NCBI GenBank assembly: GCA_945870155.1
Contig: CAMBSB010000002.1
Coordinates: 1 to 64,000, forward strand
Length of the DNA: 64,000 bases
From: Paludibacter jiangxiensis
Lineage (GTDB): Bacteria > Bacteroidota > Bacteroidia > Bacteroidales > Paludibacteraceae
Direction of reading: 5' to 3'
The translations under genes were made by a program, and so were the position numbers. The notes below the pieces were generated by a model. It was not told where the DNA came from. It searched no databases and saw only the letters and a list, made by a program, of their open reading frames with translations. Numbering within the stretch: position 1 is the stretch's first letter; each line of letters begins with the position of its first letter. Shown here piece after piece: positions 33,476 through 51,833 of the stretch.

Positions 33476-34462
33476 TCAGACTTTTATCAATTGTTTTAAC
33501 CGCCCCTGATAGCACTGCCAATAATTTTGTTTTATTTTGTCGTTTAGATAAGAGGCTGCAATAAGCTTTTCAACTTCTGCTGATTTTGAAACCATTAGTT
33601 CCATACTGTTCTTTAATATCTTTTTGCTTATGCCGGCAATCTCAGCTAATTTGGCAAATTGCGCACTGATTTTTCCTTGTGCTACATTTTTGGGCAATAG
33701 TCCATCTTCGAGTGCAAAATCTTTGTCTTCAATGTGAATTCGACTGTTTAAAAGGTCGTAAGCGGGACTTAATCGATAGTCACCCATTGGTGTCTCAAGT
33801 ATCGAAAAGTTTTTAAAATTCGCATCACCATTCGAAAACAAATAGTTGAAAATAAGCAACTTTAAAAGTTTTGGTGCTTCTATTTTATAAGTTGGCAAAT
33901 GCGTTTGCATGAGTTGAAATAGATCCAAATAATTCCCCAAATACTTGTAATGTTCTCCGTGCGTTTGTGGTGTACGACCGGCCAGAGATGCAAAATCGTC
34001 TTGAGCACGTTTTATCCCGTCTTCATTTACATCAAAGCGCTTCGTGATATAGGCCGGAGCACCGTTTTTAAAAAAAATCAATGCGTTCTCGGCTGTTTCT
34101 ATTCCATACACTAGGCGGGCAATTTGCATGGTTAAATGTTCGTTAGCAGGCATTTGATCCGGATTTTTACCCGCACCCGGAATCGGTTTCAGTATATAAG
34201 TACCTCGTTCCCCTTCTTCAATCAATCGTAACTTATTTTTTTCGAGTAAAACCGAGAATTTTTCCTGTACTCCCGAAATCGACATGCATTTTCTGTTTTG
34301 TTCAAAAAGCTCATCCGTTTCAGCATTAGATGCAGGTGAATCGTAGGGCAATACATATTGCACCGCCTTGCCGTTAAAAACCCTTTTTAAGCATGTACGA
34401 CTATACCCGCTAAAGCCTTCGGCTAATGTGCCTGGACAATATTTTATTTCAGGTAAACTCAT
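33476..34462 (-). CDS. HipA-like kinase toxin (HipT-like), second module
   Basis: Gly-loop SISGVQEKFSVLL, catalytic NGDANFKNFSI, LSPAYDLL. Confidence 0.88.
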   Translation of the reverse strand: MSLPEIKYCPGTLAEGFSGYSRTCLKRVFNGKAVQYVLPYDSPASNAETDELFEQNRKCMSISGVQEKFSVLLEKNKLRLIEEGERGTYILKPIPGAGKNPDQMPANEHLTMQIARLVYGIETAENALIFFKNGAPAYITKRFDVNEDGIKRAQDDFASLAGRTPQTHGEHYKYLGNYLDLFQLMQTHLPTYKIEAPKLLKLLIFNYLFSNGDANFKNFSILETPMGDYRLSPAYDLLNSRIHIEDKDFALEDGLLPKNVAQGKISAQFAKLAEIAGISKKILKNSMELMVSKSAEVEKLIAASYLNDKIKQNYWQCYQGRLKQLIKV

Positions 34463-34788
34463 TCTTTTTCAATTTTTGTTATCCGTACTGCACCAATGCT
34501 GTCAAACTTTGCAGTGGTCATTAGTAAACCAAAATAATCATCCGTATCAATCCGATTCAATTTGCACACCACCTGCTTATTGGAGCCTTCGGGTAGCATG
34601 TTATAAAAAAACGGAAATAAGTATTGCGAATGAAACGGCTGTTCATTTTTGGGCAAAGTAAGGCTGATAGCTGGTTTAGCGTTGTCAGCTAACCATGCAT
34701 TCATATAGCAAAATGTAAATGAGCCATCATCGTGTTGGGTCAATACGCCGGCTTCCTGGTCTTTGAATAGTACTTGAGCTTCTCTCAT
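34459..34788 (-). CDS. HipA N-terminal-domain protein (HipS-like), second module
   Basis: AGVLTQHDDGSFTFCYMNAWLAD...PAISLTLPK...FPFFYNMLPEG; 4-bp overlaps with both neighbours. Confidence 0.87.
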   Translation of the reverse strand: MREAQVLFKDQEAGVLTQHDDGSFTFCYMNAWLADNAKPAISLTLPKNEQPFHSQYLFPFFYNMLPEGSNKQVVCKLNRIDTDDYFGLLMTTAKFDSIGAVRITKIEKE

Positions 34789-35003
34789 TTGTTAGGAGCG
34801 ATGTTTTTTATTGTCAGGCTTACTTCCATCCCAAGTACATCGGCTATTTTTTGTAAGGTAAGCAATGTAGGATTTCCTTTTCCGCTTTCAAATTGCTTCA
34901 AGGTGCGTAATCCCACGCCCGATAATTCGGCTACCGTTTCTTGTGTTACTTGCAACACTTCCCTGCGCGCCTTTATTGTTTTTATTAATTCTGCATAGTG
35001 CAT
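34785..35003 (-). CDS. HipB-like XRE antitoxin, second module
   Basis: VTQETVAELSGVGLRTLKQFESGKGNPTLLTLQKIADVLGMEV; ATG at 35003 preferred over TTG at 35033. Confidence 0.87.
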   Translation of the reverse strand: MHYAELIKTIKARREVLQVTQETVAELSGVGLRTLKQFESGKGNPTLLTLQKIADVLGMEVSLTIKNIAPNK

Positions 35004-35009
35004 TATATG

Positions 35010-35062
35010 GCTCTTTTTGGTGCAAATATACAATACTTTTCTAAATATACAATAAAAAGAGC
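35010..35062 (-). promoter_or_regulatory. Promoter/operator of second hip module
   Basis: GCTCTTTTT (35010-35018) / AAAAAGAGC (35054-35062) perfect inverted repeat enclosing minus-strand TATATTTG -7 and a duplicated TATTGTATATTT. Confidence 0.55.
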
Positions 35063-36752: not shown

Positions 36753-39700
36753 TCACGCATATGCCCTACTTCCACCACTCTGTGCAATGGTCAAAAAATG
36801 GTCGTACACTCTATCGCATTTGTTACTGTAAATTTCTCTATCGTAGCTTTTAGGGAGTGTTTCATCCAAAACTTTTTTAATTGCAAATTGAACTTGCATG
36901 CGGGTTTGGGTATCTTTAAACCAGTCGGTAATGAGTACAGTTGGTCTATCATCCTTTAATTTATGCAATAAACTTTTAGCAGCCAGTTTTACTTTTTGCT
37001 CTTCGTCTTTGGTCAGGTTTTCTTTTTTTATGAGGTCGAAGATTTCCAGTTCGGCATCGGTCAGTCCTTCCTTTGCAGCACGCATTTCTTCTTCACGCAT
37101 TTTATCCACAAAGTCCATTAAATCGTCGAAGAAATTTTCGTTGGTTGCATTGCCAGAGTTGTAACGGTCGATTATTTCCTGCAACTTCTGCGCAAAGCTG
37201 ATCCGAGTTACATTTCGCTCCATCATCAGTTGTAATTTACTTGAAATAAATGCCCTGAGGTCAGCAATTTCAATATTTTTATGTGGAGCTGTTTTGTATT
37301 CTTCTTTTAATTTCTCAATATCCAGTTTACTAAGGTCAATTTGCTTCCAAGGTTTAATGGTAAATGCATTTCCTTCGGCAGCAATATTCTCAATCAGCGG
37401 TTTATTACTGATTTGTTCTTCTACTGCTTGTGCCACTATGCTTTCGTCCAGCAATTGACTGATACGCCTTTTAGCGCTATCCAAGTCGGCTCTATCCGCT
37501 TTTCCATCCATCACTTCGCGCAAATAATGAATAATGGCAGCCAATAGAAAGTCCTTGCGGCGACCTAATATTTCTGGTTTACAGGCTTCGTACAATGCCT
37601 CAATGGTGTTGTCGTACACCACAAACTGTTTTTTGTGTTCGTCGTTTGCCACAATGGTATCGGCAAAGTCATCGAACAATCCCAACTTGTTGAAAAGTAT
37701 CTTTGAATCACTGATTTCTGTCAGATTTACGCCTATGGTTGCACACCAAAGATTGCATTCGTTTATGGCATCGGCAAGTAACACATAGAGTTGATCCTTT
37801 TCTTGTACCGGCACATCTTCACCCGAAGAACCACCAAAAGTGCCACCACCATAGGAAGCAAATGCTTTTTTGAGGTTACGGAAAACATTGTAGTAGTCAA
37901 CAATTAAACCGTTTTTCTTTGGTTTGTTATTTATCAGAAAGTCTGTCACCCTGTTTGCACGTGTTATGGTCTGCATTAGGGTATGGTCTTTCATAGGCTT
38001 GTCGATATACAAAGTTGAAACAGTTGGTGCATCAAAACCCGTAAGCCACATACTGCATACAAAAACAAGTCGTAATGGGTCATCTGGTTTCTTGAATTTG
38101 TATTCTAGGTCGTAACCATTTTCGTCGGGAGTGAGCATCCGTTTTCGGTGCGATTTTATATCTAAATTTTGTTTTTCAAATTTTTCATCCTCGCCCGCTT
38201 CTTCACTTACAATCACCGCCATTTCGGTTTTTCGCATCCAATCCAGCAAACGTTTTTGTTCCTCTTTTTCTCGACTATCATTTAGCGAGTTCAGTTGTGT
38301 TTGCAATTTTCGTTTTTCTTCTTCCCACAATCGTTTTACCTTATCGTACATTTTTACGGCTGTGAATTTATCAATGGCAATTACCATTCCTTTGCCCAGA
38401 TAACCTCGGCGAGGGAAATGATACACAATATCGTGAGCAATAATATCTAAACGATCGTCTCGTTTTAAAACGCTCATTTCTGTAGCAAAATCTTTTTCCA
38501 ATCTGATTTGATCGGCTTCAGTCAAATTTTCATCGCTAACAATATCAGCCAAATCATCATCAATATCATCATTCTGAAGCAATACAGAAGGAACACGCTT
38601 GTGATAGAAGAGCGGTACAGTAGCCTCATCTTCAATACTTTGTTTAAAGTTATATTCCGATACATTTTCGCCAAACCATTCGTGCGTTAGCTTTTTACTT
38701 CCCAATAATGGTGTCCCTGTAAATGCCATGTATTGTGCATTGGGTAAGCCGGTACGCATATTTTCCGCCAAATCTTTGTATTGTGTACGGTGGGCTTCGT
38801 CAATAATCACAATAATATCGTTGCGGGTTGACAATATTGGATATGCCTGACCTTTTGGGTAACGAAATTTTTGTATTAGTGTAAATATATAGCGGGTATT
38901 GGTTTGAAGCAATCCACGCAAGTCTTCACCGTTGGCCGGTCGGCATTTGGTGTCTTTGTTGAATGCACCTGCACCCAAAAAGTTCCGGTAAATCTGACCA
39001 TCCAAATCATCGCGATCGGTAACAATCAGAAATGTGTAGTTACCTGTGAATTTGCGGAATACTTTTCGGGCAAAAAATATCATACTATAACTCTTGCCGC
39101 TACCTTGTGTATGCCAGAAAACACCTAATTTGCCTTTGTTCGCGCTGTCGGTTCCTTCGGTATCGTGCTTCAGGCGAAGTGCGAAATTGTCAATGGCATT
39201 GTTTACACCTAAAAACTGGTGATTTTTGGCTGCAATTTTGGCTATATCGTTGTAGAAAAGAATAAAATTTTCTACATAATCCAATAGTTTCCGTTTGTCG
39301 CAAAGACCCAAAACGGCATAATCCAAACTAACACCGTACTGTTGAATTCGTTTTTTATCCGGCACTTGTTCTTCGTTGTTTGGACGTAACCAATTGAAAA
39401 AGTGACCATAACCTGCATTAAAACTACCTACTTTTGTCTCGAATCCATTACTCAGCATACATAAGGCATTGTAATGAAACAAGAGTGGAATATCGCGGCG
39501 GTAATTGGTGAGGTTATCGTCGTAGGCATTACGAACAGCAATGTTACTATTTTTGAGTTCGATAAAAATTAAAGGAAGACCGTTCAGAAAAACAATCAGG
39601 TCAGGTCGGCGACGGATAAACTGTCCTTGTATCCAGAGTTGTGAAACAACTAAGTAATCATTTTTGGATGGCTCATTAAAGTCAACGACTTTAACGTTTA

Positions 39701-40028
39701 CAGTTTCTTTTCGTCCGTTAGTGTTGTTTATTTCAAGTTGAATGCCATTCTTGATTAAGCCTGCAATTTCTTTATTGGCTTCAAATTCCAATTTATCCAG
39801 GCGGGTCTGACAAAGTTGTTCAAAAGCCTCATCTATGGCCGATTCGGGAAGTCCTTTGTTTAATTCAATCAGCTTCCGACGGAGTAATGGCTTTATGACC
39901 ACATCCGTTTCTGTCAAACGACCCGTACTGTCTTTATCAATGCAATTGATATGGCGGTAATCGAGGTTGTGCGTGAACACCTCTATAATTGCCTTTTCTA
40001 TTTGATCTTCCGATATGTAATTTGCCAT
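36753..40028 (-). CDS. hsdR: Type I restriction endonuclease subunit R
   Basis: GVFWHTQGSGKSYSMIFFARK (Walker A), IIDEAHRTQ, FTGTPL; 1091 aa. Confidence 0.95.
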   Translation of the reverse strand: MANYISEDQIEKAIIEVFTHNLDYRHINCIDKDSTGRLTETDVVIKPLLRRKLIELNKGLPESAIDEAFEQLCQTRLDKLEFEANKEIAGLIKNGIQLEINNTNGRKETVNVKVVDFNEPSKNDYLVVSQLWIQGQFIRRRPDLIVFLNGLPLIFIELKNSNIAVRNAYDDNLTNYRRDIPLLFHYNALCMLSNGFETKVGSFNAGYGHFFNWLRPNNEEQVPDKKRIQQYGVSLDYAVLGLCDKRKLLDYVENFILFYNDIAKIAAKNHQFLGVNNAIDNFALRLKHDTEGTDSANKGKLGVFWHTQGSGKSYSMIFFARKVFRKFTGNYTFLIVTDRDDLDGQIYRNFLGAGAFNKDTKCRPANGEDLRGLLQTNTRYIFTLIQKFRYPKGQAYPILSTRNDIIVIIDEAHRTQYKDLAENMRTGLPNAQYMAFTGTPLLGSKKLTHEWFGENVSEYNFKQSIEDEATVPLFYHKRVPSVLLQNDDIDDDLADIVSDENLTEADQIRLEKDFATEMSVLKRDDRLDIIAHDIVYHFPRRGYLGKGMVIAIDKFTAVKMYDKVKRLWEEEKRKLQTQLNSLNDSREKEEQKRLLDWMRKTEMAVIVSEEAGEDEKFEKQNLDIKSHRKRMLTPDENGYDLEYKFKKPDDPLRLVFVCSMWLTGFDAPTVSTLYIDKPMKDHTLMQTITRANRVTDFLINNKPKKNGLIVDYYNVFRNLKKAFASYGGGTFGGSSGEDVPVQEKDQLYVLLADAINECNLWCATIGVNLTEISDSKILFNKLGLFDDFADTIVANDEHKKQFVVYDNTIEALYEACKPEILGRRKDFLLAAIIHYLREVMDGKADRADLDSAKRRISQLLDESIVAQAVEEQISNKPLIENIAAEGNAFTIKPWKQIDLSKLDIEKLKEEYKTAPHKNIEIADLRAFISSKLQLMMERNVTRISFAQKLQEIIDRYNSGNATNENFFDDLMDFVDKMREEEMRAAKEGLTDAELEIFDLIKKENLTKDEEQKVKLAAKSLLHKLKDDRPTVLITDWFKDTQTRMQVQFAIKKVLDETLPKSYDREIYSNKCDRVYDHFLTIAQSGGSRAYA

Positions 40029-40097
40029 ATTTGAGAATTGATTTAGAATTTATCACCTAGTTTATCACCTAATTTACCCCGTAACTATTTATTCGCT

Positions 40098-40560
40098 AAT
40101 ATACACCAATAACCTGTTTTGTCAGATCCAATACGTTCAATCATCTTATCTTGCTTTAGCCTACGAATTTGTTTTTCAACAGCACTAACACTTAATCCTA
40201 TGCTATTTGCAATTTCGGTTTCGTAATGTTTTTATTGTCAATTATATGATTGATAATTTGAGTCGACGTTTATCCCCTAGTATTTTAGTTTCTTCCATCA
40301 TTTCTTCCATGTTTCTTCCATATTTTCTTCCATGTTTTCTAATTTCTACATTAAAAAATGATTTTCTAATGCCCAATTTTAGGCTTTACCACCATTTATA
40401 CCGCCACTTTTACCGCCATTTCTTCCACAGTATTACCACAGTTTCTACCTTGTTTTCTGCCATGTTTTCTGATTTTACGTTTATAAGAGATAGTCCAATG
40501 CACACTTTTATGCTTTTACCGCCAGTTATACCGTCATTTTCTCCACAGTCTTTACCACAG
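40098..40560 (-). pseudogene. Decayed winged-helix/linker modules
   Basis: Minus-strand fragment VSAVEKQIRRLKQDKMIERIGSDKTGYWCILANK plus EEN/EEMMEE- and VEK-like linker remnants. Confidence 0.5.
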
Positions 40561-40577
40561 TTTTCTCCACAGTATAA

Positions 40578-40805
40578 CTATTCTGTTTTATCAGGAACAA
40601 TTACCCATTGCCCACCTTTATCTCCACCTATTCGGTTTAAAACGCCTGCTTTTTTTAATTTATCTAGTTGATATTCAACTCTCCGTTGACTCAATCCGCT
40701 ATACTTCATCATCTCATTTATGGTAATCTTAGCATTAGCAGATATCGCTGCAATTAAACTTTCAGTTGAATTTTTCTCCACAGTTTTCTCCACAGTTTTC
40801 TCCAC
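40578..40805 (-). CDS. Detached winged-helix module (GTG start)
   Basis: VEKTVEKTVEKNSTE...RRVEYQLDKLKKAGVLNRIGGDKGGQWVIVPDKTE; near-duplicate of the C-terminus of the upstream gene, offset by frame. Confidence 0.55.
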   Translation of the reverse strand: MEKTVEKTVEKNSTESLIAAISANAKITINEMMKYSGLSQRRVEYQLDKLKKAGVLNRIGGDKGGQWVIVPDKTE

Positions 40806-40807
40806 AG
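40772..40807 (-). repeat. 3 x 12-bp tandem repeat
   Basis: TTTTCTCCACAG x3 exact. Confidence 0.9.
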
Positions 40808-40812
40808 TTTAA

Positions 40813-42465
40813 TTATTCAGTTTTATCAGGAACAATGACCCATTGCCCACCTTTTGTAGATCCTGAACGTTGAATTTTACCTTCCAATTTTAGTTTATTT
40901 AATTGATATTCAATTACTCCACGACTTTTGTTTGTAAGCTTTTCAATTTCAGACGCTGTTATACTTGGATTTTGTTCAATAATTTTTAACATCTTTTCTT
41001 CCAGCATTTCTTCCATGTTTTCTTCCAGCATTTCTTCCATCATCTTTAATTTTGACGTACCTGAAACAACCTTCCACTGCCCACCTTTATCAGGCCCTAC
41101 ATGTATTAATTTATTTTCATTTTGCAGCCTATTTATCTGTTTTTCAATAGCTCTGGTAGAAATTCCAATAATCTCAGCAAGCTCTGAAATCGTAATAAAA
41201 TTATTTATTTCAATCAGTTTTAGTATTTTCTCCGAACTTTTCTCCGAACTTTTCTCCGAACCTTTCTCCGAACTTTTTTGTACAGTTTCTTCGGTTGGTT
41301 TTGTTGTTTCGTCCTCCACCACTACCGGTCGTTTAAAAATAATGGTAAACAATCCTTCTTTTTGGTAAATGGGAGCGGGCAAATGGTTGGTGAGCATCAT
41401 TTCTTCCATACGAAGAATGCCTGAACCTACTTTTTCGACCAAATGCATTCGTTGAAAAAGACTAAATATCAATGGATTGCGCGATACGCTTTTGTGTCCA
41501 AATTCTTTGCCAACCGAAGCCAGCAAGCCGCCCGGATTCGAAATTTCTACTCGGTCGTCGAACAACTCAATGGTGGTTACAGCACCTTTTTCATAATAAT
41601 CGCGATGTGAAAGTGCATTGACAATGGCTTCTTTAAATACGGTTTCGGGTATTTCCCACACTTCTTTTCGCGGACCACCACCTTGACCTTCAATGTCGTA
41701 GCCTACATTCAGTTTTCCGCGTAACCATTCTCGGGCATTGGTGTATTGCACAAACAATGGACCCGTATATGTTTTGTCATCCGAAATATAGCGCTTGTTC
41801 ACACCTCTAAATGCCACACAGCGGGTAATAGCCTGTTCGTAAAATTGTTCGGGTTGCGAGCAAAAAAACAAAACTCCACCACGTTTAAACTGTCCGTCGG
41901 ATGTAAATAATTGAAGGTTTTTACGAATTTGGCTATCGGTAACAGCGGGCGAAAAACCGGCTTCGACCCTGAAATTAATAAAATTATCACGGTCGATTTG
42001 CGAGTCAACATCAAAGTCTCTACAGGTAGCTTCGTCAAAATAGAGCTTTTCGGATTCCTGAAAGAAATCACGCATCTGCTCTGCGGTTTTGAGTTTCTGA
42101 CTGTTTGGTCCAACCCGCACATAAATTGAACCGGAACAGACATAAGGTTTATTTATCCCTGTAGGGACTTCAATCACTGCAATGTCAAATCCATCCACAT
42201 TAACCACTTCGAATGAGCAATTTAATTGGGGAGAAATTTCAGATATTGAATTTTGTATGGCAGAGCGTTTGGCATTATCAATACTTACACCTTTCAGGTT
42301 GTTGTTATCGTCAACACCTATCAGCAATATGCCTCCTGTAGCATTGGCAAATGCACATACTTCTTCGCTCAGTTCCTTTACTTTAGAAGGAACCGATACC
42401 TTGAATTCCGCATTGTAGCCTTCGCCCGAAGCAACTAACAGTTTTATGTCATCGGCTGTTACCAT
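40813..42465 (-). CDS. AlbA_2 / HATPase_c_4 protein with tandem C-terminal winged-helix modules
   Basis: AEFKVSVPSKVKELSEEVCAFANATGGILLIGVDDNN; FKEAIVNALSHRDY; two wHTH modules ending GGQWKVVSG and GGQWVIVPDKTE. Confidence 0.85.
   Translation of the reverse strand: MVTADDIKLLVASGEGYNAEFKVSVPSKVKELSEEVCAFANATGGILLIGVDDNNNLKGVSIDNAKRSAIQNSISEISPQLNCSFEVVNVDGFDIAVIEVPTGINKPYVCSGSIYVRVGPNSQKLKTAEQMRDFFQESEKLYFDEATCRDFDVDSQIDRDNFINFRVEAGFSPAVTDSQIRKNLQLFTSDGQFKRGGVLFFCSQPEQFYEQAITRCVAFRGVNKRYISDDKTYTGPLFVQYTNAREWLRGKLNVGYDIEGQGGGPRKEVWEIPETVFKEAIVNALSHRDYYEKGAVTTIELFDDRVEISNPGGLLASVGKEFGHKSVSRNPLIFSLFQRMHLVEKVGSGILRMEEMMLTNHLPAPIYQKEGLFTIIFKRPVVVEDETTKPTEETVQKSSEKGSEKSSEKSSEKILKLIEINNFITISELAEIIGISTRAIEKQINRLQNENKLIHVGPDKGGQWKVVSGTSKLKMMEEMLEENMEEMLEEKMLKIIEQNPSITASEIEKLTNKSRGVIEYQLNKLKLEGKIQRSGSTKGGQWVIVPDKTE
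40994..41041 (-). repeat. 2 x 24-bp tandem repeat
   Basis: TTTTCTTCCAGCATTTCTTCCATG/C twice. Confidence 0.9.
41226..41273 (-). repeat. 4 x 12-bp tandem repeat
   Basis: TTTTCTCCGAAC x4 (one mismatch). Confidence 0.9.
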
Positions 42466-42482: not shown

Positions 42483-43715
42483 TTATTTCACCTCCAATTT
42501 TCCACTTATCAACCGTGGCAACAAACGGTCACGGATTTGACGAAGTTGGGTGTTTTGCTGCTGAAGTGTTTCCTTTTGATCTATTATTGGCTCAACAATT
42601 TTATTGAATTTTAATATTAAACTATCAGTTGGCTTAAATAGAGAGAAACCTGTCATTAGATTTGCATTGGCTTGCGGTTGTGCAGCTCCACTTGCAACTG
42701 CTTGAATGAACTCTTTATAGTTATCAGACTCTGCAATTATTCCAATATAGTAGCTCATATTTGAATCTATTGATTTAAGTCTGACTAAGTAAGAAGCAAA
42801 AACTGATTTGGGGTGATATTTATTAATTCGTTTAGCATAGCCAACAGTTGCACCAGTTCGGGCTACAACAATATCTCCATTATTTAATAAGTATTTATCT
42901 TCATCTTTTTCAGAAATAGCACAATGTGGTACATCATCCCAATTAATATCTCCATTTGCAACATCTGTAATACGCAATAACTTTGGTCCAATATTTTCAT
43001 TTGTTGCACTTGCAGTAAAACCATATTGAGTTCTTACTAATTCACTTAATTTTTTCACTTCCCATCCTTTCGGCATCCCCTTCACAAACTTCGCCTCTTT
43101 ATGCCCAGGAAACCGCATGCGCACAAACCATTCTTTGTAAAGCTCACGGGCAGTTTCTTCCAATAATTTAATCCGTTGATTATTGACTTCAATTAAGTCG
43201 TCGTAAGCGGAAAGTATGGAGGCTATGCGGTGTTGAAGTTTGATATCTGTCTCTGGTAAACTAATTTTACGTAAGTCTTTTATTGGAAGCTGTGGTTGTG
43301 CTGTGCCACTTGAAAATAATTGAATTTGCTCTTGAATGTAATTTGATTTAATTAGGTAGTACAAGAAGATATTATTGTATTCATCTTTATCAGGTCTTAG
43401 AATAACCATACCTGAGTTTATTCGAATATGATCGTAATTGATTGCATCAACAAATACTGCAATATTGCCTACTGTTCCTCTTGTAGTTAAAACTAAATCG
43501 CCTCTTTTAAGTTTTCCTTTTCTGAGTTTCTCATCTTTGGGTTTTGAAATGAAACTACATTTTGAGAAATCAAATCCTTCTTTAGTTACGTTTCCTGTAT
43601 TTAGAAACAAACAATATCCTGATTCAAAGAATTCTGATTGATTCGGGTAATTTATACCTCTGTCACCATCAATTATCTGAATTGAAGTTTTATAAATTCT
43701 TTTTGTTCCTATCAT
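42483..43715 (-). CDS. hsdS: Type I restriction specificity subunit S
   Basis: Two target-recognition halves with conserved repeats (LQHRIASILSAYDDLIEVNNQRIKLLEE; QIRDRLLPRLISGKLEV). Confidence 0.93.
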   Translation of the reverse strand: MIGTKRIYKTSIQIIDGDRGINYPNQSEFFESGYCLFLNTGNVTKEGFDFSKCSFISKPKDEKLRKGKLKRGDLVLTTRGTVGNIAVFVDAINYDHIRINSGMVILRPDKDEYNNIFLYYLIKSNYIQEQIQLFSSGTAQPQLPIKDLRKISLPETDIKLQHRIASILSAYDDLIEVNNQRIKLLEETARELYKEWFVRMRFPGHKEAKFVKGMPKGWEVKKLSELVRTQYGFTASATNENIGPKLLRITDVANGDINWDDVPHCAISEKDEDKYLLNNGDIVVARTGATVGYAKRINKYHPKSVFASYLVRLKSIDSNMSYYIGIIAESDNYKEFIQAVASGAAQPQANANLMTGFSLFKPTDSLILKFNKIVEPIIDQKETLQQQNTQLRQIRDRLLPRLISGKLEVK

Positions 43716-43716
43716 C

Positions 43717-45537
43717 TCAAAATAACGATTTAATGTTATTCTCGATAACGGCTCCTATAGAAATAGACGTTTTATGAAGATCAAAAAGTTTCTCATGTCT
43801 CTCTTTCATTTCCGTCAAAAACTCTTCTTCTGTCAATCCATCTTCTTCAATTACCACACCCACATAGCGTCCGGGGTTCATGCTCCAGTCCTGTTCTTCA
43901 ATTTCGGCAAGGGTGGCCGCTTTACACAGTCCGGTTACATCTTCGTACACGCCTGCAGGGAAACGCTCGTTAAGCCATGCTATTTGCGCTTCGAAATAGT
44001 GTTGTTTTGCCAGCAGTGCTTTGTACGCATTTTCGGCTTCTTCCACCTGTTTTTCCCAGCGTTTCAGCTCTTTATCCAGTTCGGGTTTTTCGGCTTTCAG
44101 TTTCTCCAACACCTTTTGTTGGTCAAACGCCTGATTGGAAAAGTCAATGGCTTGTGCTTCGTATTTTGCCAAAAGTGCAGTCAATCGGTCGGTTTCGCCA
44201 CGGTACAGGCGTACAATGGTGGCCATGTTTTGAATTTGTTCTTCGGTAAATTCGCGGTGCGCACGGTCTATCTGTCGAAATATGTTTCGGGCATCGATAA
44301 ACAACACTTTTGGTTCGGTACCGGCTTTGCTTTTGTCGAAAAACCACAAAGTGGCAGGCAAGGTAACGGTATAAAACATGTTTTTAGGCAAGGTAAGCAT
44401 ACAGTCAATTACTCCACTTCGTACCAGATTTTGGCGAATATCGGCTTCGCTGTTGCGGGCATCACTGGCAGAATTAGCCATAACCAAAGCAGCCTTTCCG
44501 GTAGATTTCAACGAAGTAGCAAACAGGTTTATCCACAGGTAATTGGCATTGGGTACCGTGTTGGGATTGTCTTTTTTCTTACCCGTGTTTTTGGTTTTGT
44601 TCTGCGGTATGCCGTATTCGTTGAATCGCTTTTGGTCTTTTACCTTATCCAGATTTACTTCATCTACGTTGAAAGGCGGATTAGCCATTACATAATCGAA
44701 ATTGCCATAACTATTGTATGGGTCATCATAATAACTATTGGCAGGTTTTATCTCACCACGCAAGCCATTTACGGCAATGTTCATACGTGCCAGTTTTACG
44801 GTTTCCGGTGTGCGTTCTGCTCCATAAACCATCAAATCTTTGGTGTCGTTGTCGTGTAATTCTTCCCGTCGTCTGTCCACAAAATATGAACTTTGCACAA
44901 ACATACCACCACTACCACAAGCCGGGTCGAAAATAGTTCCCTGATAAGGCTCAATAATTTCAACCATCAGTTTTACCACGCTGGTAGGCGTAAAGAATTC
45001 CCCACCACCCTGACCTTCGGCCAGTGCAAACTCACTCAGGAAGTATTCATAAACTTTCCCAAACACATCACCTGTGGCATCTTCGGGTATATCGGCAAAA
45101 ATTTTCAGTAGCGATTTTGGCAATGTGCGGTCATCGTCCGAATAAAGTTTGAAATACTCATCCTTTGGTAAACTGTCGGCCAGTTCCGGTTTGTATTTCT
45201 CAATCTCTTCCATGGCGTGTTTTATCGCTTTAGCAATATCCTGTTCTTCGGGCAATGCCAGCAGGTGTTCGTAGCGAGCCTTTTCAGGTAGATAAAATCC
45301 ACATTTGGCAATGGCAATTTCGGTTTCCGTTTGTTGCATGCGACCATCTTTCTGAGCTTTTAATTCGGCTTTTATTTCGGGCACTATGCGATTGAAACGC
45401 AAGGACGCAAAACGTAAAAAAATTAATCCCAAAATAGGTGTTGCATACTCACTGGCTTTCAGCCCACTATCCACTCTTAACTTATCAGCAGCTTGCCAAA
45501 GTTTATTTTCTAAATCCTTTAATTGTTCGGAAGTCAT
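43717..45537 (-). CDS. hsdM: Type I restriction methyltransferase subunit M
   Basis: GQGGGEFFTPTSVVKLMVEII, DPACGSGGMF, MANPPFN. Confidence 0.96.
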   Translation of the reverse strand: MTSEQLKDLENKLWQAADKLRVDSGLKASEYATPILGLIFLRFASLRFNRIVPEIKAELKAQKDGRMQQTETEIAIAKCGFYLPEKARYEHLLALPEEQDIAKAIKHAMEEIEKYKPELADSLPKDEYFKLYSDDDRTLPKSLLKIFADIPEDATGDVFGKVYEYFLSEFALAEGQGGGEFFTPTSVVKLMVEIIEPYQGTIFDPACGSGGMFVQSSYFVDRRREELHDNDTKDLMVYGAERTPETVKLARMNIAVNGLRGEIKPANSYYDDPYNSYGNFDYVMANPPFNVDEVNLDKVKDQKRFNEYGIPQNKTKNTGKKKDNPNTVPNANYLWINLFATSLKSTGKAALVMANSASDARNSEADIRQNLVRSGVIDCMLTLPKNMFYTVTLPATLWFFDKSKAGTEPKVLFIDARNIFRQIDRAHREFTEEQIQNMATIVRLYRGETDRLTALLAKYEAQAIDFSNQAFDQQKVLEKLKAEKPELDKELKRWEKQVEEAENAYKALLAKQHYFEAQIAWLNERFPAGVYEDVTGLCKAATLAEIEEQDWSMNPGRYVGVVIEEDGLTEEEFLTEMKERHEKLFDLHKTSISIGAVIENNIKSLF

Positions 45538-47343: not shown

Positions 47344-48996
47344 ATGTTAGATTCTCTTGAACCCGAATATATCTTTGAAACAAGTTGGGAAGTTTGCAAT
47401 ATGGTTGGTGGTATTTACACCGTTTTGTCAACCCGTGCTGCTACCCTGCAAGAACAATATAAAGACAAACTTATTTTTATTGGTCCGGATGTATGGAAAG
47501 ACCGTCATAACCCTTATTTTGTTGAAGATACTAAATCTTTTGAAGATTGGAAAAACTACACTCAACACGAATATCATTTAAGAATAAGAGTTGGACGTTG
47601 GACAATTCCAGGTAATCCTTTGGCAGTTTTGGTTGATTTCATGCCGCTAATGAATCGAAAAAACGAGATATATGCTCATGTTTGGGATCAGGTTGAGGTT
47701 AATTCAATGCCTGCTTATGGCGATTATGATGAGTCATCTATGTTTGGCTATGCCACCGGAATGATAATGGAAAGTTACTATCGCTACTTCAAACTACAAG
47801 CTAACCAGCAAGTTATAGCGCATTTCAATGAATGGATGACAACTTTTGGGGCATTTTACATACAGGAGAATTTACCTGCTGTGGCAACCGTTTTCACAAC
47901 TCATGCCACTTCTATAGGACGATCTATAGCCGGGAATCATAAACCATTATACGATTATTTGCAAGAATATAACGGAGATCAAATGGCTTATGAGCTCAAC
48001 ATGGTATCCAAACATTCAACCGAAAAAAAAGCGGCTCAACTAGTTGATTGTTTTACAACAGTAAGTGAAATTACAGGTGTGGAATGCGAACAATTACTGG
48101 AACGTAAACCTGATATAATTACACCTAATGGTTTCGAAGATGATTTTGTGCCAAAAGGAAAAAATTTTACTACTCAAAGAAAAGACGCACGAAATTCATT
48201 GCGCCATGTGGCCGAAACTTTGCTTGGTTACGAACTGAACGAGAATGCTTTATTTATCAGCACAGCAGGACGTTACGAATATAAAAATAAAGGTATTGAT
48301 ACTTTTATCGAATCGTTAAAACTATTGTACGATTTTAATGATATGACCAGACAGGTTGTGGCTTTTATTATGGTTCCGGCTTGGGTACAAACGCATAGAC
48401 CCGACTTAGCCAATAGTCTAAAAAATCCTGACTCTAAACTTTATTCATACAATAGAATAACAACCCACGAATTACATGATTATTATAACGACAATGTAAT
48501 GAGTGCTTTACATTGGTTTCATATCAGAAATCAGATTAACGAAAGAGTTAAAGTAATTTTTGTTCCTTCTTATTTGAATGGAGCTGATGGGATTTTCAAT
48601 AAAAGTTATTATGAACTTCTTATAGGTATGGACTTAACCGTATTTCCATCATATTATGAACCATGGGGTTATACACCGCTCGAAAGTGTAGCATTTTCAG
48701 TACCAACCATTACAACAGATTTAGCAGGCTTTGGGCAATGGGTATCAAAACTGCCTCAAGACTTAAAAAATGGAGTTGGTGTAATACATCGTTCCGATTA
48801 TAATGGTCATGAAGTTGCTCAAAATATTGCTAAAATGATATGTGAATTTTCACTTTGTACTGAAAATGAAGTGAAAAACATACGAAAAAAAGCATCAATT
48901 ATTGCTGAAAAAGCACTTTGGAAACATTTTATCACCTTCTATCATCAAGCTTATCATCAGGCTTTAAAGGCTAAAAATGAAAGAATCACACTTTAA
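47344..48996 (+). CDS. Glycogen(starch) synthase, GT3-like
   Basis: EYIFETSWEVCNMVGGIYTVLSTRA; FPSYYEPWGYTPLESVAFSVPTITTDLAGFG. Confidence 0.88.
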   Translation: MLDSLEPEYIFETSWEVCNMVGGIYTVLSTRAATLQEQYKDKLIFIGPDVWKDRHNPYFVEDTKSFEDWKNYTQHEYHLRIRVGRWTIPGNPLAVLVDFMPLMNRKNEIYAHVWDQVEVNSMPAYGDYDESSMFGYATGMIMESYYRYFKLQANQQVIAHFNEWMTTFGAFYIQENLPAVATVFTTHATSIGRSIAGNHKPLYDYLQEYNGDQMAYELNMVSKHSTEKKAAQLVDCFTTVSEITGVECEQLLERKPDIITPNGFEDDFVPKGKNFTTQRKDARNSLRHVAETLLGYELNENALFISTAGRYEYKNKGIDTFIESLKLLYDFNDMTRQVVAFIMVPAWVQTHRPDLANSLKNPDSKLYSYNRITTHELHDYYNDNVMSALHWFHIRNQINERVKVIFVPSYLNGADGIFNKSYYELLIGMDLTVFPSYYEPWGYTPLESVAFSVPTITTDLAGFGQWVSKLPQDLKNGVGVIHRSDYNGHEVAQNIAKMICEFSLCTENEVKNIRKKASIIAEKALWKHFITFYHQAYHQALKAKNERITL

Positions 48997-49268
48997 TTAA
49001 AGTCTAAGTATCATTTTGTATGTATTTAAACTCAAACACTTGCAAATCGCAAACGTTTGTTATTTTAAATGATGTTTTTCAACATCATCTATTCGATATG
49101 TAGTTCAATTGTATTATTTTTGCACTTTAAAAGATTCTTTTAATATTAAAGTTTTAGTATCCAACATAATATATTAGTTTTTGTAGATTAAAATTCAATA
49201 ACAGATCAAACATTGTCTGTCTAATTTTTTTTAATCTATTATTTTACTTATTAAAAAGACATAAGCAA

Positions 49269-51833
49269 ATGAGAATTAAAGTTAACAATGTAAATGAACC
49301 TATCTGGAAAGAAGTAAATGTTAAAACCAATTTACCGGAAAGTTTAAAAAAATTGGAGGAAATCGCTCAAAATCTTTGGTGGGTTTGGAATAGCGAAGCA
49401 AAAAATTTATTCAGAAAAATCGATGCTGAAGCTTGGATTGAAGCACATTCTAATCCTATTCACCTATTGAATTTACTAAGTTATGAAAAGCTCGTTTCAT
49501 TAGGAAATGATGCTGTATTCGTAAAAAAACTTGATGCAATATACGATAATTTCAAATCGTATATGAGCGTACCCTATAATACTCAAAAACCTTCTGTAGC
49601 CTATTTCAGTATGGAATATGGATTAACTGAAGTTTTGAAAATTTATTCTGGTGGTTTAGGAGTTTTAGCTGGTGATTATTTAAAGGAAGCAAGCGATTGC
49701 GCTGTTAATCTTACTGCTATAGGTTTTCTTTATCGTTACGGTTATTTTACCCAGTCTTTATCTGTTGATGGACAACAAGTTCCACTTTACGAAGCTCAAA
49801 ACTTCAATAATTTACCAATAAAACAGGTTAAAGATTCAAATGAACAACCATTAATAATTGAAGTTCCTTTTCCTGATCGAATTATTTATGCTTATTTGTG
49901 GAAAGTTTCAGTGGGTCGAATTTCATTATATCTACTTGATACTGATAACGATATGAACAGTGAATTTGATCGTCCGATTACACATCAACTATATGGTGGT
50001 GATTGGGAAAATCGAATGAAGCAAGAATTCTTATTGGGTATTGGTGGTATTTTAGCTTTGAAAAAATTAGGCATCGAAAAGCAAGTTTATCATTGCAACG
50101 AAGGACATGCAGCCTTAATTAATGCACAAAGATTAGCCGATTTAATTGCCGAAAAAGGTTTAACTTTCAATCAAGCTTTGGAAGTTGTACGTGCAAGTTC
50201 GCTTTACACCGTACACACACCTGTTCCTGCAGGACATGATAGCTTTACAGAAGAACTTTTCGGAAAATATATGAGCGATTTTCCTGCAAAACTACAACTT
50301 TCGTGGGACGATTTCATTGATATTGGTCGTGAACGTCCGGGCGATAAAGACGAAAAATTCAGCATGAGTACTTTTGCTTGTAATACTTGTCAGGAAGTTA
50401 ATGGTGTGAGCTGGTTACACGGTAAAGTTTCGCAAGAAATGTTCAATCCTATTTGGAGAGGTTATTTCCCTGAAGAACTACATGTTAGCTATGTTACTAA
50501 TGGTGTTCATCTACCTACATGGACAGCTTCGGAATGGAAAGCTGTGTACGAAAAATACTTCACCAAAGATTTTTATGCCGATCAATCGAACATGAAAATT
50601 TGGCAAAAAGTGTATGATATTCCTGATAAAGAAATTTGGGATACGCGTATGCACATGAAAAATCGTTTGGTAGAATTTATCAGAGATCAATTCCGCGAAA
50701 ATTGGTTGAAAAATCAAGGTGATCCATCACGCATAGTATCAATTTTGGAATCAATCAACCCAAATGCATTGATTATAGGTTTTGGACGTCGTTTTGCAAC
50801 CTACAAACGTGCGCATTTACTATTTACCGATTTAGAACGCCTGGAACGAATAGTGAATGATCCTGCACGTCCCGTACAGTTTTTGTTTACAGGAAAAGCG
50901 CACCCTGCCGATGGTGGTGGACAAGGATTAATTAAACGTATTGTTGAAATTTCAAGAATGCCTCAATTTATCGGAAAAGTAATTTTCCTTGAGAACTACG
51001 ATATGCGTTTAGCCAAGAGATTGGTTTCGGGTGTTGATATTTGGTTAAACACACCAACCCGACCACTCGAAGCCTCAGGTACTTCAGGTGAAAAAGCACA
51101 AATGAATGGTGTCCTTAACTTCTCTGTATTAGATGGTTGGTGGCTCGAAGGTTATGTAAAAGGTGGCGGTTGGGCATTAACTGAAAAACGTACCTACGAA
51201 AATCAGGAACATCAGGATCAATTAGATGCTGCAACTATTTACAGTATGCTCGAAAATGAGATTGTTCCTTTGTATTTTGCAAAAAACACCAAAGGATATT
51301 CTCCTGAGTGGGTTCAATTTATTAAAAACTCAATAGCGAAAATCACTCCAAGGTACACTACCAAAAGAATGATAGATGACTATATTGAAAAATTCTATAC
51401 AAAGCTTGCTACACGTTCTGCTCTTTTAAAAGATAATAATTATGCAAAGGCCAAAGACATTGTAGCCTGGAAAGAAAAAATATCACAGGCTTGGAACGAA
51501 ATACAAGTGGTAAGTGTGGATATCCCTGAAAAATTACTTCTCAACCCCCAAGTTGGCGAAGATTATAATTTGAATGTGGTACTTGATGTGAATGGATTGA
51601 ATGAAAAAGGCATTGGTATAGAACTGGTTATAACTAAATATGGTAAAAACAACAAAGAATTATTGAGCGATGTTGAAGAACTTAAATTAGTAAAAACTGA
51701 AGGTTCAAAACTCTTTTTCAATATTGATTATCAAATGAATAATGCCGGAACCTTTAAATATAGTTTTCGTATGTTCCCTAAAAACGAAGATCTACCACAT
51801 CGACAAGATTTCTGCTTTGTGCGTTGGATTTAG
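49269..51833 (+). CDS. glgP: Alpha-glucan phosphorylase
   Basis: [78 protein letters not shown]. Confidence 0.93.

Follow-up and report, generated by a model that had tools for sequence, protein, structure and literature searches.

A Schlafen-type gene with a 12-bp minisatellite and a winged-helix tail in a Paludibacter type I restriction-modification locus, and the apparent exchange of such tails among relatives

The stretch of DNA considered here, hereafter the window, comprises 64,000 nucleotides of contig C2 of a Paludibacter jiangxiensis draft genome (5.8 Mb in 339 contigs), and carries on its minus strand a type I restriction-modification (R-M) system in which hsdM, hsdS and hsdR are all intact. 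The order on this strand is hsdM (43717-45537, with N6_Mtase and HsdM_N domain matches), hsdS (42483-43715, with a Methylase_S match), a gene referred to as gene X (40813-42465), an open reading frame (ORF) of 75-76 aa, an intergenic stretch of about 550 nt that is rich in repeats, and finally hsdR (36753-40028, with HSDR_N and SWI2_SNF2 matches). Gene X encodes 550 amino acids with a Schlafen/AlbA_2 domain (Pfam PF04326, 9.5e-23), a HATPase_c_4 domain (PF13749, 1.2e-19) and two winged helix-turn-helix (wHTH) modules (PF13412, 1.8e-10), and so corresponds to the AlbA_2/ATPase protein that an initial annotation had placed within a type I R-M locus, its position being between hsdS and hsdR. Elsewhere in the window three adjoining minus-strand ORFs (33476-35033), which encode an HTH_3 protein (82 aa), a lone HipA N-terminal Couple_hipA domain (109 aa) and a lone HipA_C domain (328 aa), are arranged as in tripartite HipBST-type toxin-antitoxin systems. 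Next to the R-M locus, on the plus strand (47344-51833), are glycogen synthase-like and glycogen phosphorylase-like genes, recognised by eye from their translations.

The body of the gene X protein consists of the AlbA_2 domain at residues 15-125 (42091-42423, minus strand) and the GHKL-type HATPase_c_4 domain at residues 295-375 (41341-41583, minus strand). Within AlbA_2, E15, E20 and D53 are invariant across 46 homologues. The active site of SLFN13 is formed by E205, E210 and D248 (PMC5862951); E15 and E20 have the same spacing as the catalytic pair E205/E210, and the GVDD segment that aligns to SLFN13 contains D53. The sequence and fold matches of the protein include DIP2311 (PDB 3lmm) and Schlafens such as SLFN13 and SLFN14. 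Among solved structures it is the uncharacterised DIP2311 that best matches the architecture as a whole (E 9e-22), albeit at a low identity of 16-18% and with an entry title that does not mention an array. From this resemblance the body of gene X is probably an RNase.

Two in-frame wHTH modules close the protein at its C-terminus, as had been claimed, with module 1 at residues 414-468 (41062-41226) and module 2 at residues 492-546 (40828-40992), both on the minus strand. Their profile scores (HMM E 5e-24 and 9e-22), together with that of module 3 below, are flattering because modules 1-3 of the window supply three of the 19 tails in the profile. Tandem repeats of 12 or 24 bp lie where the initial annotation had located them. 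Array 1 (41226-41277, minus strand) has the 12-bp unit TTTTCTCCGAAC, as read on the plus strand, and encodes SSEK or GSEK four times (TRF 4.3 copies, 95%), and array 2 (40990-41041, minus strand) is built of 24-bp/12-bp units encoding MEEMLEEN (TRF 2.2 copies of 24 bp, 92%). In an AlphaFold model of the protein (mean pLDDT 79) the region of array 1 is disordered over residues 383-401 and then forms a helix (402-420) that carries on into helix 1 of module 1, while array 2 is one long helix (469-498) running into module 2. Array 3 (40772-40810, minus strand), with the unit TTTTCTCCACAG on the plus strand and encoding VEKT three times (TRF 3.2 copies, 100%), is situated past the stop codon of gene X and out of its frame. 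In every repeat of this array GGAG stands six bases ahead of GTG, such that the array looks like a series of start codons, each with its ribosome-binding site, immediately behind the gene X stop, and coupled translation of the following module through it is conceivable from the sequence. Bacteroidota seldom rely upon Shine-Dalgarno sequences.

The DNA downstream of gene X contains two further modules, one intact and one decayed. Module 3 is an orphan wHTH (40578 to 40805 or 40808, minus strand; E 8e-25) which forms the intact 75-76-aa ORF; the shifted frame attributed to it was correct, the near-identity was not, since it shares only 51% amino acid identity with module 2. Modules 2 and 3 do have the common module end that had been described, and match at the DNA level (92%) over an 83-nt block made up of the module end and the array after it, present as a direct repeat pair at 40537-40619 and 40772-40854 (minus strand) whose copies lie 235 bp, or one module, apart; outside this block the two modules are unlike, with the half carrying helices 1-3 being different. 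Beyond module 3 are decayed non-coding 12-bp arrays (40311-40573), partly in the form of a 130-bp duplication, a further decayed array (40288-40340), and a frameshifted wHTH, module 4 (~40088-40231, also delimited as 40091-40219; E 5e-16), whose closest match is locus L018 (62%) and which represents the decayed copy previously suspected at ~40100-40250. Just upstream of hsdR an array remnant encoding LGDK (40047-40076; TRF 2.5 copies, 88%) has no module left, and intact LGDK arrays are found in loci L039 and L048. Modules 3 and 4, the 40311-40573 arrays and the LGDK remnant are on the minus strand, and the decayed intergenic arrays, which the initial annotation had overlooked, differ in their unit type. 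Across the whole 64 kb, exact lag-12 runs of at least 14 nt occur only in the SEKS array (41226-41277) and the VEKT array (40772-40810), and lag-12 identity in the gene X tail and intergenic region lies above that of all 1000 Markov shuffles, such that the arrays of the window are not a product of chance.

Whole genomes and a single scan of 84,980 species supplied the relatives of gene X. Of 95 non-redundant tails, 58 have a tetrapeptide array, defined by lag-4 runs of at least four residues, abutting the wHTH, a figure that is biased as a frequency in that part of the tail set was gathered using array-bearing tails; a clear array is lacking in about a third of the homologues. In the same 95 tails lag-4 identity over the 28 residues ahead of the wHTH is 0.366, against 0.112 after shuffling, runs of at least four residues at lag 7 are found in four tails, and none are found at lags 2, 3, 5, 6, 9 or 10. 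This exclusivity of period 4 is unaffected by the array-biased sampling, of which it is independent. The tetrapeptide itself varies between genes, with SSEK, TTQK, SSVK, LGDK, VEET, GTEK and VGKD among the versions observed. Neighbouring units use the identical codon in 693 of 715 cases (97%), compared with the 43% expected from the codon use of the same genes, and 47 of 67 arrays are codon-perfect. The arrays are thus minisatellites at the level of DNA and not merely conserved peptides. Over 64 units, in three phases, the consensus is GGAGAAAACTAC. Units in different frames can resemble one DNA 12-mer, for instance GGTGAAAAGTTC (SSVK) and GGTGAAAAGTTG (LGEK), and it is suggestive, if only that, that all arrays derive from a single 12-mer read in different frames; an off-phase test of the idea gave a Fisher p of 2e-4 and a median p of 0.14, with units that are not independent.

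Close relatives reveal how the arrays change. Among sets in which body and wHTH are both at least 85% identical, six of the seven array-bearing groups differ in length by whole 12-bp units: by one unit in L011/L014, in L063 versus L065/L110 and in L074 versus L076/L091, by two in L142/L143 (with one further residue outside the array), and by three in L140/L141 and L061/L121, the arrays of L085/L086 being equal in length. These comparisons are between different species, with one genome per species, and most of the loci come from metagenome bins where assembly error is possible in some array lengths. Array-less Flavobacterium pairs have no length difference. The linker can therefore be said to change in length without breaking frame, as had been proposed from the window, with whole 12-bp units being the difference between relatives.

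The number of modules also varies, again in keeping with the original proposal: most homologues have one wHTH, and two in frame are found in the window, in a genome of the same genus (G176), and in L058, L115 and L105. In L058 both modules are nearly identical as DNA, each bordered by SSEK units, which indicates a recent tandem duplication. In G176, module 1 is 91% identical to module 1 of the window and has two SSEK units versus four, module 2 is nearly the same in its C-half and differs in its array and N-half, and directly downstream of this second module lies the part of the 40311-40573 repeat that adjoins the last module of the window. The neighbouring genes in G176 encode a SNF2 helicase and a methylase of Eco57I type and are not hsd genes, and the body of its gene X homologue is interrupted by an IS200-like element. 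At this locus (L049, 5260-6850 on contig C86) the IS200-like transposase (PF01797) that splits the gene is surrounded by scattered short copies of ACGGTGCTCTGCACCTTT, as in REP/RAYT elements. The two-module relatives L115 and L049 have in common a neighbourhood of SNF2 helicase, gene X and a very large downstream ORF, which in L049 is the Eco57I methylase, and this looks like an uncharacterised defence locus. In L010 (contig C63 of G013) three family paralogues adjoin in tandem, with the array units GTEK, VGKD and VGVQ.

Extra modules downstream of the gene occur in the window and in no other homologue locus that was compared, which rules out a silent-cassette reservoir as a general feature of the family. 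Tail duplication, part of the process originally envisaged, is borne out by L058 but is not on its own the main process. The nearest relatives of modules 1-4 of the window differ from module to module, so exchange between genes outweighs copying in place.

Tails can diverge widely on otherwise similar bodies. When the bodies of a pair are 45-85% identical, wHTH identity has a median of 33-45%, and where bodies are at least 85% identical the wHTH falls below 60% in 18 of 41 pairs (in neither case are the pairs independent). Body segments of equal length display no such divergence, in a set chosen to avoid near-duplicates. For instance, body and wHTH identities are 97% and 42% in Belliella (L087/L130), 96-97% and 51-53% in Flavobacterium (L071-073 versus L080/081), 89% and 38% in Algoriphagus (L100/L102), and 91% and 48-51% in Fic proteins (L140/141 versus L142/143). 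In the L100/L102 and L060/L064 swaps conservation resumes past the replaced block. The clearest swap is on two complete Arcobacter plasmids (L166/L174), CP146529.1 from Arcobacter sp. and NZ_CP099557.1 from Aliarcobacter cryaerophilus, where 60-nt windows of the body show 90-100% identity up to about nt 1110. There follow some 200 unlike nucleotides, an LGEK array and helices 1-3 in one versus a TRVK array and helices 1-3 in the other, after which identity is complete from the wing segment GGAKGGHWEILK to the stop codon and still high into hsdR.

The array takes part in these replacements. Across 75 genes the similarity of array units tracks that of the wHTH (partial Spearman 0.44, permutation p 0.002), whereas it bears no such relation to that of the body (partial -0.06, p 0.83); pairs with like bodies and unlike wHTHs have a unit in common in one of 43 cases, and those with like bodies and like wHTHs in 17 of 29. 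Array and wHTH thus move together. Array-less Flavobacterium tails have also diverged, so the array is not needed for divergence, and some tails could be explained by fast diversifying point mutation instead of recombination, an account that does not extend to the Arcobacter block. Within the bacterial family, 78 of 120 genomes contain matches to the array-wHTH profile, and the cassette is borne both by AlbA_2/HATPase_c_4 and by Fic/DOC bodies. Comparison within E. coli found no DNA homologous to an alcanivoracacean member. In a Rhodothermus marinus strain pair the gene is frameshifted in both, with stretches 98% identical, and most plasmid matches in Enterobacteria and Pseudomonas belong to a TrlF-linked subfamily in which the match stops ahead of the tail.

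The reading we favour, with a probability of about 0.6, is that gene X is an accessory Schlafen-type RNase/ATPase defence effector with an exchangeable wHTH specificity module acting as a sensor. The effector body would comprise the AlbA_2 RNase-like and GHKL-type ATPase domains, and the cassette would consist of the 12-bp minisatellite with wHTH helices 1-3, which recombination would insert with the conserved body on one side and a conserved wing (RxGxDKGGxW) on the other. Through slippage or unequal exchange in the array the linker would gain or lose whole tetrapeptides, and a module would sometimes be duplicated, so that the array may serve both as a spacer for the wHTH and as a recombination handle. 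The wHTH would sense a trigger, either foreign DNA or a ligand, a swapped cassette would respond to another trigger, and array length may tune the coupling of sensor to effector. Comparison of relatives establishes the exchange and the stepwise length change as features of the sequences; the sensor role, its trigger, the mechanism of recombination and the effect of array length are what we infer from them. The cassette swaps favour the earlier suggestion that changes in the tail diversify recognition.

An unlikely, though the most durable, alternative is that the arrays are structural linkers, or helical struts, which slip neutrally, the wHTH being an ordinary fast-diverging DNA-binding domain and the exchange non-adaptive background recombination. 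The partly disordered and partly helical character of the modelled arrays, continuous with helix 1 of the wHTH, would suit such a linker, and any 12-bp tandem repeat is expected to change in copy number. Neutral slippage, however, should yield other in-frame periods, whereas period 4 alone occurs, and it accounts neither for a wHTH that diverges far more than equal segments of the body nor for the joint movement of array and wHTH.

A rather improbable alternative is that gene X is a transcriptional regulator, or autoregulator, of the neighbouring R-M or defence operon, with the wHTH binding the operon promoter and changing alongside it. The wHTH is like the DNA-binding domains of MarR/Lrp/AsnC-type proteins and gene X is inside an hsd operon, yet its body is a Schlafen domain with conserved E/E/D rather than a typical ligand-binding regulator, and the adjoining hsdR sequence is unchanged where the Arcobacter wHTH has been swapped. 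The neighbours, moreover, differ widely among relatives. Those immediately adjoining the gene are rich in defence genes, including type I R subunits, SNF2/DrmD- or BrxH-like helicases, PLD-helicases, Eco57I/DrmMI-like methylases and PglZ; BREX-, DISARM- and type IIG-like genes are also among the neighbours, and the Azotobacter homologue lies in the order brxC-X-pglX. Recognisable hsd genes are close to only about 12 of 79 close homologues, which rules out the hsd-specific regulation raised in the initial annotation as a general role. Least probable is a phase-variable contingency locus, one whose 12-bp arrays and out-of-frame module 3 would switch among the members of a population and so alter tail length or module, for despite the near-perfect arrays, the 83-nt repeat flanking module 3 and the unit-wise variation among close species, a 12-bp unit is always in frame and switches no reading frame, recombinational loss of module 3 would be irreversible, and downstream modules are peculiar to this locus among those compared.

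An effector with an exchangeable sensor would have relations among known systems. In at least 1017 taxa, proteins combining a Schlafen RNase, a minimal histidine kinase and a wHTH are described (PMC12839542), in the accessible part of the report, as effectors accessory to BREX and to systems related to it. Gene X has the same three-part architecture and likewise belongs to a DNA-modification defence locus: it possesses the AlbA_2 Glu pair five residues apart with a distal Asp, the GHKL/HATPase_c_4 domain, a C-terminal wHTH and linkage to a defence system. It differs from the BREX-linked effectors of that part of the report in being hosted by a type I R-M operon, and tetrapeptide minisatellites, multiple modules and cassette swapping are not mentioned there.

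As a repeat, the closest precedent is the TAEL sequence of the EcoR124I/II HsdS, also a 12-bp in-frame tetrapeptide repeat of variable number, whose copy number spaces a DNA-recognition domain (PMC3874165). TAEL separates the two recognition domains in the specificity subunit of a methyltransferase, whereas the present array is in gene X and not hsdS, links a wHTH to a Schlafen/ATPase or Fic body and, unlike TAEL, changes its unit sequence with the swapped domain. The replacement of a recognition segment between conserved flanks is similarly reminiscent of target-recognition-domain exchange in HsdS, including domain movement in Helicobacter pylori, as far as the accessible part of that study describes it (PMC3077401). 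Gene X is nonetheless an unrelated protein, the exchanged part is the array with wHTH helices 1-3, and no general silent copies were found. Fic/DOC proteins with a C-terminal wHTH, the catalytic body of which is unrelated to AlbA_2, have the same array-wHTH cassette and the same tail replacement (L140/141 versus L142/143). No tetrapeptide minisatellites in Fic or Schlafen wHTH proteins were found in the literature searched, which is weak evidence given that most subscription papers, and a 2025 preprint on bacterial Schlafens, lay outside its scope. A broader proposal, on which we lean slightly towards doubt, is that bacterial immunity includes, outside hsdS, a dedicated, DNA-level specificity-exchange module in the form of a minisatellite-bounded (12-bp) wHTH cassette that is shuffled among the unrelated Schlafen-ATPase and Fic bodies in more than one phylum, re-targeting conserved effectors with a linker tuned in helical steps.

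If the wHTH is indeed the sensor, bacteria would redirect a conserved immune effector of RNase type through the exchange of a cassette some 200 bp long, akin to the exchange of recognition domains in HsdS. This would also account for the unalignable tails of prokaryotic Schlafen and Fic proteins that are otherwise near-identical. The natural allelic pairs of Arcobacter, Belliella and Algoriphagus differ little outside the presumed sensor, such that trigger specificity would be directly mappable with them.
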